Shown in pieces: positions 56,171 through 59,874 of a stretch of DNA of 64,000 nt. Under the pieces are notes generated by a model, which was given only the letters and a program-made list of their open reading frames with translations, made no database searches and had not been told where the DNA came from. Numbering within the stretch: the stretch's first letter is position 1; every line of letters begins with the position of its first letter. The DNA comes from Gammaproteobacteria bacterium (GTDB lineage Bacteria; Pseudomonadota; Gammaproteobacteria; Pseudomonadales; Pseudohongiellaceae): contig JAGYKB010000012.1 of NCBI GenBank assembly GCA_018401885.1, positions 1 to 64,000 on the forward strand, given 5' to 3'. The position numbers were made by a program, and so were the translations under genes.

Positions 56171-56210
56171 ATAAAAAAGCGAAGCGGGCTATAAAAAAGC
56201 GAAGCGGGCT
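56171..56210. repeat. Perfect 20-bp tandem duplication beside the terminator of the UGSC operon
   Basis: ATAAAAAAGCGAAGCGGGCT occurs twice head to tail. The AAAAAAGCGAAG part is one arm of the adjoining hairpin, so the terminator arm itself is duplicated. Confidence 0.92.
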
Positions 56211-57439
56211 ATATCCACTCCATCCACTTCGCTTTTTTCGGCTGCCCGCGAGTTAGTAAACTTCGAACAGACCTCGCCGCGGTTCATGCCGCCACCGACA
56301 CACATTGTGCAAACAACGTATTTGGCGCCGCGACGCTTGCCTTCGATAAGTGCGTGGCCGACCATGCGCGCGCCGCTCATGCCGTAGGGATGGCCAATCG
56401 AAATCGCGCCGCCATTGACGTTGAGAAGCTCGTCGGGGATACCGAGTTTGTCGCGGCAGTAAATAACCTGTACCGCAAACGCTTCGTTAAGTTCCCAAAG
56501 GCCGATATCATCCATTGTTAAGCCGTTAGCTGCCAACAGCTTGGGGATTGCGTAAACAGGACCTATGCCCATTTCATCAGGTTCGAGGCCTGCAACGGCC
56601 ATGCCGCGGTAGGCGCCTAAGGGGTTTAGGCCGCGCTGTTCGGCAAGCTTGCTGTCCATGATGACCGAGGCAGAGGCGCCGTCTGACAGCTGGCTTGCGT
56701 TGCCGGCAGTGATCACGCCGCCCTCGATTACAGGCTTAAGGCCAACGAGACCCTCAAGCGTTGTCGAAGGACGATTACCTTCGTCTTTGTCGAGCATGAT
56801 ATCGTGGACGCTTTGCTGCTTAGTCTCTTTGTCCATGAACAACATCTTGGATGCCATTGGCACGATTTCGTCATCAAACTTGCCGGCTGCCTGCGCGGCT
56901 GCCGTGCGCTGTTGGCTGCGCAGAGAGTATTCGTCCTGCGCATCACGCGAGATGTTGTAGCGGCTAGCGACGACTTCTGCCGTTTGTAGCATCGGCATAT
57001 AGGCATGCTGTGAGCGCGCGACGACATTGGGATCAATTGCGCGATACGCATTGCGATGCTCGTTCTGCACAAGGCTGATTGACTCTAAACCACCGCCGAC
57101 CACGATTGGCATGCCATCAACGATCACCTGCTTGGCAGCGGTCGCTATAGCCATCATGCCCGAGGCGCACTGACGGTCCATGCTCATGCCCGATACGCTT
57201 GAGGGAAGCCCTGCTGCGACGCCCGCTGTGCGGCCGATGTTCTGGCCCGAAGAGCCTTGCTGCATGGCGCAACCCATCACCACGTCTTGGACCTCGGCAG
57301 GATCGATGCCCGCACGCTGAACCGCCGCAGCGATGACGTGGCCGCCCATTGTTGGCGCATCGGTGTCATTGAAAGCGCCGCGGTAGGCCTTGCCGATCGG
57401 GGTTCTCGCCGTGGATACGATTACTGCTTCTCTAGTCAT
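56189..57439 (-). CDS. Acetyl-CoA acetyltransferase-type thiolase with a probable frameshift at its 3' end
   Basis: A thiolase with [14 protein letters not shown] (acyl-accepting Cys near 89), [19 protein letters not shown] (base His) and [11 protein letters not shown] (C-terminal Cys). After CVGGGMNRG the frame reads [18 protein letters not shown] and runs through the terminator to 56189. In the alternative frame the same DNA reads GLFEVY followed by TAA at 56255-56253, the normal end of this family. A single base is therefore probably missing near 56272-56276. The authentic gene likely spans 56253-57439. It is the last gene of the operon with the UGSC selenoprotein, 61 nt upstream. Confidence 0.87.
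56193..56238 (-). terminator. Terminator of the 59.9-56.2 kb minus-strand operon
   Basis: On the minus strand AAAAAAGCGAAG (56238-56227) and CTTCGCTTTTTT (56204-56193) form a 12-bp stem with a 22-nt loop, ending in the T run. A second copy of the right arm follows because of the tandem duplication. It is placed just after the inferred true thiolase stop at 56253-56255. Confidence 0.75.
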
Positions 57440-57500: not shown

Positions 57501-58022
57501 TTACTCTGCAGCGCAGACTAGCCGTTTAATGTTTTCGATAGCGTCTCTCGCTAGTAGCGTCATCTCTTCATCGCTACGATCTTGTATCGGATGCGGAACG
57601 AAGAGGCTGGCAGGTTTAATTCCCAAAGAGCGCCCCTGCGCCGCTGCCGCGTCGACGAACTCAGTCGAGGCGATAAAGGCTGAGGGAAGTCCACGACTTT
57701 CGAGATTCATGATGTCATGCAAACTGCACGAGGTACACGAACCTCAGTCGGCGAGCCCTTCGATGACCGCGTCGCATTCGACGCTAATCTTTTGAGTGAG
57801 CTCTAACGGAGCGATTCTTGCGAAAGTCGGTTTTGCATAGCGATTAACTTTTGCACCCACAGCGACAAGCTGTCTTTCGACTTCGTCTAAGAACTCCTTT
57901 CCGCGTGGTTTTGAAATATCTAGCAGGCCCACGGTTGCGCCTGCGAGTGTCGCAAGCCTTGGCAGGATTTGCCGCTCAACCGGGCTTAGCTCGGCGGTCG
58001 GGTCAAGCAGAGTAGTGTGCAT
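57501..58022 (-). CDS. UGSC-family selenoprotein (TGA 57744-57746 read as selenocysteine)
   Basis: The track lists two ORFs, 57744-58022 (92 residues) and 57501-57722 (73 residues). They are in the same frame, separated by a single TGA. Reading the TGA as Sec gives one 173-residue protein with [21 protein letters not shown], the U-G-S-C redox motif that names a known selenoprotein family. The downstream half has no ribosome binding site and its track start is a TTG inside the conserved segment. A stem-loop fitting bacterial SECIS rules lies downstream of the TGA, and SelD is encoded in the window. The predicted role is thiol/selenol redox chemistry. It lies 19 nt after the Trx-like gene. Confidence 0.88.
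57716..57730 (-). promoter_or_regulatory. Bacterial SECIS-like stem-loop
   Basis: On the minus strand CGTGCA-GTT-TGCATG forms a 6-bp stem (one G-U) with loop GTT. The loop starts with G, 20 nt after the TGA. Published bacterial SECIS rules ask for a small apical loop with G among its first bases about 16-37 nt after the UGA. Confidence 0.7.
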
Positions 58023-58041
58023 TGCCTTACTCCATTAGTCG

Positions 58042-59496
58042 TTAACTTGATGTTAGTTGTGAGACGAGCTGACTGCCGCGTTCGCCTGATGCTACCCAGC
58101 CACCGATAATCGCTGAAAACATGCCAGCGGTACCACCTAGCGTCACGATATGCAGGCCGTCGTCTCTAAATTTGTTCAATATTTTGTCTTTGAAACGCTC
58201 GGGCATGCCTTCGGCGATTCCGTCGGCGCCGCGCACGATTTCCTCGCCCGGCGTCATTAGATTATTGTACAGGGCTGCGCGCAAATCTGCCTTGGTCCAG
58301 CCGCCTTCTTTGAAAACCCGCCGGTGCTCGGGGCAGACTAGCAGAATCGCGTCTGCCATACCAAATAGCTTGCTATGAGCGACTGTTCTTAGGCTCGCGG
58401 CGAGGCTGAGAGCGAGTGACTCTGGGGTACGAGACTGCTGATCGACGATCCCCTGTAGCCCCTCGCCGGCAAAGAGACTGACGACGGATTCGTTTCTGTT
58501 AAAGCCGCGATCTTGGGCAAGCGTAGGCCAATCGGCATCCGATTCATCTTCGGCGAAGCAGTAACTGTATTTGCCCGGATTACCCATCGTGGCGCGATCG
58601 ATGCCGCCCGGCAGACCGCCGCCAACATTCCGTATGAGTAACTGAAGTGCGCGGCCAATAGTCGCGTTGGCACGGTTGCCTTGTCCCAATGCGTTAATAC
58701 CCGAGTTCATGCCAATAGCTTTGGTAATGGGTCCATTTACAATCACCACCGGTGAAGAAAAATAAGTCGTGCAGAGAAGTCCGTGCATACAAAATTTGTC
58801 TTGCAAGGCGGCTTCAACCGCCGCGAGCACCACTGGGAAGTATTCGGGCTTGCACCCAGCAAGGACCGCGTTGATCGCAACCTTTTCGATACTGCAGGGC
58901 ACATTGTCCGGTGGTATGTTGCCGATTATCTCAGAGGCCGATCTGTCGCTACCCTTGAGCATTCTTATTACTCGCAGGGCAGTGGGCGGCACAACCGGTA
59001 AGCCGTCGCTCCAGCCGCGATCGAAACATGCCTCGAGTTCGTCCTCCGATGACGCTAGCTCTACTTCTCGCGCTTGCAATTCATTCTTGCCGAAGCGCAG
59101 CGCGAGCACCTCGTCCATACCAGGGTCTTGCGTCTTCGAACCACACCCGGGCTTAAACTCGATGAGGGCCTCTCCGAGGGACTGGATACCCGTAAACTCC
59201 CGCCATTCTGCGCGATCCCATCCCACTATTCGTGCCTCATCTCCTGCCGCATCGTGGCGAATGAGGGTCGGAACGATTTCGATGCCAGCGGCATAGGACT
59301 GCTCGAGGTTCCCGTCGTCGACAACCCCTGGCATATCGGGGAAAGTAGGGTCGTCTTGGGTATAGAGGGTGAGAGCTTCGCCTAGCCGCGCAGCAAGTTC
59401 TGAGACGGCGGGGATAACGAGCTGACAGGTTGGACAGTCGCGCTTTAAATACAATGAGTAGCGCGTTGACGCGGCGGATGAAGCGGAAGTAGTCAC
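58042..59496 (-). CDS. Protein with an N-terminal thioredoxin-like CPTC motif and a large uncharacterised domain
   Basis: A 484-residue cytoplasmic protein. The start YSLYLKRDCPTCQLVIPAVSELA has a C-P-T-C redox motif near residues 20-23, followed by IEIVPTLIRHD, which resembles the cis-Pro region of thioredoxin folds. After a linker with PGCGSK (about 117), residues about 145-484 form a domain with GWSDGLPVVPPTALRV, IGNIPPDNVPCSIEKVAINAVLAGC and MGNPGKYSYCF and several conserved Cys. I do not recognise its family. It sits 19 nt upstream of the UGSC selenoprotein, which suggests that it reduces or cooperates with it. Confidence 0.7.
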   Translation of the reverse strand: MTTSASSAASTRYSLYLKRDCPTCQLVIPAVSELAARLGEALTLYTQDDPTFPDMPGVVDDGNLEQSYAAGIEIVPTLIRHDAAGDEARIVGWDRAEWREFTGIQSLGEALIEFKPGCGSKTQDPGMDEVLALRFGKNELQAREVELASSEDELEACFDRGWSDGLPVVPPTALRVIRMLKGSDRSASEIIGNIPPDNVPCSIEKVAINAVLAGCKPEYFPVVLAAVEAALQDKFCMHGLLCTTYFSSPVVIVNGPITKAIGMNSGINALGQGNRANATIGRALQLLIRNVGGGLPGGIDRATMGNPGKYSYCFAEDESDADWPTLAQDRGFNRNESVVSLFAGEGLQGIVDQQSRTPESLALSLAASLRTVAHSKLFGMADAILLVCPEHRRVFKEGGWTKADLRAALYNNLMTPGEEIVRGADGIAEGMPERFKDKILNKFRDDGLHIVTLGGTAGMFSAIIGGWVASGERGSQLVSQLTSS

Positions 59497-59544
59497 TAAG
59501 AATCCTCTTTTACGTGCGGATATGATTGTATGCGCGACCTCTGG

Positions 59545-59874
59545 TCAATAAACGAAGCCCAAGGTGCTGATGCCAACGAGGATGTTGATTATCATGAAAA
59601 CCGAAGAGGTCCTCGAAATGACCTTCCACTTTTGCGGCCCCCGATAGCGGTTTCGAATACCAATCACGAGCAAGAATGTATAGGCGAGTTGCAATGTGAT
59701 CAATCCTATAAACGTGACCCAATTATCAGAATCGACCGCCCAGCTCCCCGCGAAGAAAAGGATACAAGCGCCACAGAAATAGAGGAGCCAGTAGCTCACC
59801 GCGAGGCGCAGGTCGCCGGCAATAAAATGTGAATCTCGGAATTCGGGTGACGCTGTTTCTGGGTCTTGTAGCAT
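59545..59874 (-). CDS. Small membrane protein, first gene of the UGSC operon
   Basis: A 109-residue protein with three to four hydrophobic segments (LAVSYWLLYFCGACILFFAG, VTFIGLITLQLAYTFLLVIG, SSVFMIINILVGISTLGFVY). No recognised family. Two Cys lie in YFCGACI in the first span. It begins the minus-strand group 59.9-56.2 kb and ends 48 nt before the Trx-like gene. Divergent from the glycine-rich TonB receptor gene; a hairpin (GGCGCTGG/CCAGCGCC, 59966-59991) lies between them. Confidence 0.65.
   Translation of the reverse strand: MLQDPETASPEFRDSHFIAGDLRLAVSYWLLYFCGACILFFAGSWAVDSDNWVTFIGLITLQLAYTFLLVIGIRNRYRGPQKWKVISRTSSVFMIINILVGISTLGFVY

Follow-up and report, generated by a model that had tools for sequence, protein, structure and literature searches.

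The 484-aa protein encoded directly upstream of a UGSC selenoprotein gene in the window (the whole 64,000-nt stretch of DNA analysed) joins a thioredoxin (Trx) domain to a large C-terminal domain (CTD), and this CTD is a near-constant, obligate partner of UGSC. By analogy with the glycine and D-proline reductases, the two gene products may form a thioredoxin-dependent (seleno)reductase in which the CTD would play the part of the substrate subunit, a reading to which we assign a probability of about 0.5.

The gene pair in the window

The two genes are found in a transcription-unit-like arrangement (Table 1), the upstream ORF being preceded by its own Shine-Dalgarno sequence (AGAGGA, 59503-59508). 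The ORFs, the alignment and an AF2 model searched with Foldseek confirm what had been read from the sequence alone, namely a Trx-like protein with a CPTC motif, followed after 19 nt by a selenoprotein gene. The structure prediction that the same reading had called for, run on the whole 484-aa protein, gave a confident two-part model (pLDDT 86, pTM 0.79) with a clear Foldseek match to thioredoxins (probability 1.0, target TM about 0.6 for the N-terminal domain) and a weak one to fumarate hydratase, discussed below. In the window protein the Trx domain scores below the Pfam gathering thresholds, and the protein as a whole matches nothing in Pfam or NCBIfam above threshold; its homologues match Thioredoxin_2 or TraF weakly (Thioredoxin_2 in 11 of 36, best E 8.9e-5). 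The Trx active site is intact, with the thioredoxin fold, the CxxC motif and the cis-Pro loop all present: C21, T23 and C24 (CxTC) and the loop V75-P76-T77 do not vary among the 26 Trx-bearing homologues. The domain thus shares its fold, CxTC motif and VPT loop with Thioredoxin and Thioredoxin_2, and differs from them in being fused to the CTD, in having diverged below the Pfam gathering score and in its invariant PGCG linker, which is present in genome G143 too.

Table 1. Features of the UGSC locus in the window
Feature	Position	Strand	Basis
Thiolase, downstream	56189..57439	(-)	PF00108/PF02803
UGSC selenoprotein, 173 aa, U93-G-S-C96-T-S-C99	57501..58022	(-)	PF24696, NF041046
SECIS-like stem-loop, at and directly after the UGA	57697..57746	(-)	folding
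In-frame TGA (Sec93), single	57744..57746	(-)	aligns with the TGA of all Sec-type homologues
Intergenic gap, exactly 19 nt, with GGAG Shine-Dalgarno	58023..58041	(-)	sequence
Trx-CTD fusion protein, 484 aa, GTG start	58042..59496	(-)	ORF; 45 related loci; AF2 model
CTD, aa 126-484 (~350 aa), family of unknown kind	58045..59121	(-)	alignments A1/A2
PGCG motif of the linker, including C118; invariant among Trx-bearing members	59140..59151	(-)	alignment
Thioredoxin-fold domain, aa 12-102	59191..59463	(-)	AF2 + Foldseek, homologue Pfam matches
CPTC redox motif, C21 and C24 (aa 21-24)	59425..59436	(-)	alignment
Predicted membrane protein, 109 aa, upstream of Trx-CTD	59545..59874	(-)	synteny

The downstream gene belongs to the GOS UGSC family, as indicated by scores over the cut-offs of PF24696 (E 9e-41; 140.3 against 25 bits) and NF041046 (E 2e-41; 141.4 against 125 bits) and by the U/CGSC motif in alignment A4. 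Its in-frame UGA is accompanied by a SECIS-like hairpin (MFE -21.4 kcal/mol over 50 nt) whose GCAGUUUGC apex recurs in gammaproteobacterial UGSC homologues, and the Sec machinery is encoded in the same genome: SelB (351.9 bits) and a tRNA-Sec gene (67.4 bits; G000:C4:71546-71635), the latter on the contig of the window, about 7.5 kb past the window's end and about 13.5 kb away from UGSC. Rfam gave no match within the window at the gathering threshold. The great majority of UGSC genes keep Sec. Among 12 genomes examined, SelB scores over the cut-off in all nine with a Sec-type UGSC, and the three SelB-negative genomes (G375, G143 and G277) carry the CGSC form. The UGSC part of a natural fusion was modelled by AF2 as a flavodoxin-like alpha/beta domain with Sec at a helix start, instead of the Trx-like fold supposed in an earlier report (PMC2398784).

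A constant partner domain of UGSC

We identified 45 CTD loci with query peptides taken from the 484-aa protein and none from UGSC, and a TGA-bearing UGSC gene is adjacent or fused in all of them, including those of Rokubacteria, Alphaproteobacteria and Chloroflexi members without a Trx domain. When 399 evenly drawn Pseudomonadota genomes were searched with a CTD profile and with PF24696, each was detected in the same six genomes, always as adjacent genes; the genome of the window is among these six, which leaves 5/5 as independent evidence. In seven further genomes, at least 103 of the 117 UGSC genes listed have a same-strand CTD no more than 700 nt away. The two are also encoded by single ORFs in several phyla, at L033, L035-L042 and L043 and in Sporomusa, Vibrio and Variovorax boronicumulans, and in these fusions the CTD is often the larger part and strongly conserved. 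The dedicated partnership that the sequence-only reading had staked on conserved linkage across genomes is thus borne out by the loci, the genome draw and the fusions. The constant partner is the CTD, the Trx domain being fused to it in one branch only.

A pairing that is near one-to-one, together with the capacity of Trx domains to act as foldases, would also suit a factor that folds, matures or delivers UGSC, protecting its selenol for instance, and stays outside the catalytic complex. We regard such a role as very improbable, given the fusions of CTD and UGSC in several lineages, the pairing of the CTD with Cys-type UGSC in SelB-negative genomes, where there is no selenol to protect, and the several loci with two CTD genes per UGSC gene. 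At three such loci (L080, L086 and L095), the two CTD genes flank or trail a single UGSC gene, an arrangement that suggests hetero-oligomeric complexes.

UGSC and its fusion with an unknown domain are already known: Zhang and Gladyshev described the family in 2008, together with a 'UGSC/Unknown_1' fusion (PMC2398784), and Unknown_1 may be the CTD. The main text of that paper mentions no operon linkage, Trx fusion, trxB context or GrdB relation for UGSC. The CTD itself is unplaced among families, having no relatives by sequence in Pfam, NCBIfam or the PDB, so that its description as a large unfamiliar domain stands; no phage copies were found. A PDB profile search gave a local similarity to two thioredoxin reductase (TrxR) entries (E 0.035) that we took as chance. 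The core of the domain is formed by the motifs GW(T/S)DGLPxxPPT, NAVxAG, RANATIGRA, GxPxKYxYCFAE and GWxK, with invariant residues D164, N209, R282, N290, D300, K309, E316, W323 and K402 (alignments A1/A2). All of these but W323 form an invariant polar core, and the conservation of D164, N209, R282, D300, K309, E316 and K402 suggests that they make up a putative active site. The several cysteines that had been pointed out in this domain are indeed present in the window sequence but fail as a functional sign: C313 (in YCFAE) is kept in 35 of 36 sequences family-wide and the remaining ones are lineage-specific. A catalytic role of the CTD cysteines was rejected for lack of conservation across the family at large.

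Genomic context and paralogue expansion

A thiolase gene adjoins UGSC at all gammaproteobacterial loci listed (L001-L021, L027, L028 and L030-L032), being shared downstream by Pseudohongiella/OM182-type genomes, and is conserved in this clade only; the predicted 109-aa membrane protein, which has no Pfam family, is conserved in the same clade. The thiolase is absent at L022-L026 and L029, and since these loci keep Trx, CTD and UGSC together with other neighbours, we consider these three as the unit. Catabolic genes near CTD/UGSC loci encode CoA-transferases, TRAP/TTT transporters, SDRs and RraA, suggesting a catabolism of small organic acids with substrates that differ by host. Outside the branch with the fused Trx domain, separate thioredoxin-system genes can take its place, and thioredoxin-reductase genes adjoin the pair in seven lineages. 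The order is trxB-trxA-CTD-UGSC in Arthrobacter sp. ERGS1:01, where trxA overlaps the CTD gene by 4 nt, and TrxR-type genes are located beside the pair in Roseovarius THAF8, Variovorax SRS16, V. boronicumulans, Haloterrigena, G139 and the Chloroflexota genome G494. At the majority of CTD/UGSC loci, no trx gene lies within reach.

One Chloroflexi genome of about 5 Mb (NC_groundwater_644, or G399; the genome of L043 and of L138-L157), a MAG in which genome mixing is possible, has 150 or more UGSC genes, and nearly all of them contain a single in-frame TGA. It encodes SelB. The 363 kb read contain 49 UGSC genes with a TGA at UG[SAT]C; in 32 of these the ORF continues for more than 300 aa past the Sec codon, corresponding to fusions. 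Strain duplication was rejected as the cause of this expansion, the identity between nearest paralogues having a median of 65% and a maximum of 76%. By comparison, the largest bacterial selenoproteome reported comprises 63 genes (PMC13188914).

These data bear on whether the pair could be a detoxifying system, such as a peroxide/sulfoxide or other thiol peroxidase or repair system, in which UGSC would reduce the oxidant, the Trx domain would recycle UGSC and the CTD would be a scaffold or target protein. The combination of Trx with UxxC is typical of selenium-based antioxidant enzymes, and peroxidase activity has been reported for GrdB, according to the title of a reference cited in PMC3091704. 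We nevertheless find this explanation unlikely: the neighbours are catabolic and not stress genes, such a number of diverged paralogues in one genome fits substrate diversity better than peroxide defence, and the polar core of the CTD is highly conserved.

Relation to glycine and D-proline reductases

Comparison by hhalign of the UGSC alignment with a GrdB/PrdB alignment built from Chloroflexota genes gave a probability of 95.5% (E 1.5e-8), with Sec aligned on Sec. The GrdB model TIGR01917 is matched by 12 of 18 UGSC proteins (best E 4e-4), and other UGSC proteins match the GrdF, GrdH and PrdB models. Judged from these profiles, UGSC is distantly related to the Sec-bearing domain of GrdB/PrdB; it has the homologous Sec domain of the protein B family but not the full-length protein B architecture, and the window UGSC, at 15.8 bits, stays below the TIGR01917 cut-off of 602.2. 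The PF07355 (GRDB) model stops just before the Sec codon of GrdB (position 347, ...VILTAT, then TGA), and the relation may go without a Pfam match because this model lacks the shared Sec domain. PF07355 is absent from the genome of the window; its matches of about 320 aa in Pseudomonadota are not true GrdB and were left out.

GrdB, GrdF, GrdH and PrdB share with UGSC the Sec domain and the UxxCxxC motif. At the level of the systems, the glycine, sarcosine, betaine and D-proline reductases likewise comprise substrate-specific paralogues and a Sec protein paired with a larger subunit, and glycine reductase receives its electrons from Trx/TrxR (PMC3091704). In contrast to GrdB (about 436 aa), UGSC consists of the Sec domain only. 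By Pfam and NCBIfam, its partner is not GrdE/PrdA-like, and here Trx is fused to that partner. The CTD is unrelated to the GrdB/PrdB profile (hhalign probability 0.8%) and matches neither a Pfam family of GrdE/PrdA-type pyruvoyl proproteins nor any other Pfam or NCBIfam family, so no pyruvoyl subunit was identified; GrdA, GrdC and GrdD were not seen at the loci examined. Unlike the Stickland fermenters that harbour Grd and Prd, the hosts of UGSC/CTD include aerobes and haloarchaea. A Grd-type Sec protein and its partner also catalyse the reductive cleavage of a non-amino-acid substrate in the fluoroacetate reductase encoded by the farACEB operon (PMC10838667), which resembles the present system in this respect but contains a true GrdB/GrdE pair, unlike UGSC/CTD.

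In the (seleno)reductase that we propose, the Trx-CTD protein and UGSC would work together in a single enzyme system. The CTD would bind a small organic substrate, which the selenol of Sec93, with Cys96, would attack or reduce, leaving a Se-S bond between the two residues. C21 and C24 of the fused Trx domain would then re-reduce this bond with electrons supplied by thioredoxin reductase. That the Trx domain reduces UGSC, resolving the selenol as had been suspected, is probable because of the trxB/trxA neighbours and the relationship to GrdB/PrdB; a substrate-holding role of the CTD appears only slightly less so. Reductive cleavage at carbon, suggested by analogy, is a more tentative proposal for the chemistry. 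Several observations speak against the reductase reading, namely the fusions devoid of Sec and Cys described below, the majority of loci without a trx gene in reach, the aerobic hosts at several loci, the dissimilarity of the CTD to GrdB/PrdB and the failure to identify a pyruvoyl subunit.

The fusions in question, from Sporomusa, Vibrio and L043, have DMGTS or DQGVTQNC in place of UGSC (L083, 6329-8053; L084, 6323-8008; L043, 485-2206), and two of them adjoin aconitase-X/DUF126 dehydratase genes, a hint of a non-redox sub-branch. Redox chemistry is therefore not universal, some members having left Sec/Cys chemistry. The whole family could, in principle, consist of non-redox lyases, hydratases or isomerases, with UGSC mainly as a binding domain whose Sec/Cys serves as a base or nucleophile and is simply kept reduced by the Trx domain in oxic cells. 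Besides these fusions, a weak Foldseek match between the Trx-CTD model and a class I fumarate hydratase (6upo_A, probability 0.80, E 1.2e-3) points in this direction, but its TM-score is only 0.24 with an rmsd of 16 A, and the CTD has no conserved three-Cys Fe-S ligand set; homology to this enzyme was rejected on these grounds. Considering also that Sec is retained, at a cost, in most UGSC genes and that Trx/TrxR genes recur beside the pair, a non-redox enzyme seems an improbable explanation for the family.

Among marine selenoproteins, the UGSC family ranks with the commonest (255 genes in GOS, PMC2398784), and its function was still listed as uncharacterised in 2026 (PMC13188914). With a constant partner, a probable electron donor and a likely relation to Grd/Prd named, this orphan becomes a testable two-component enzyme. 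It is conceivable, if somewhat less likely than the reductase reading itself, that UGSC-CTD forms a widespread superfamily in its own right, made up of thioredoxin-coupled (seleno)reductases whose catalytic partner domain is of a new kind. Such enzymes would serve aerobic catabolism in haloarchaea and across Bacteria, and the expansion to 150 or more paralogues in one Chloroflexi genome would allow many different organic substrates to be reduced. If the proposed reading is true, selenol chemistry of the Grd/Prd type would extend beyond anaerobic amino-acid fermenters, with a relative in aerobic marine bacteria, soil bacteria and haloarchaea.
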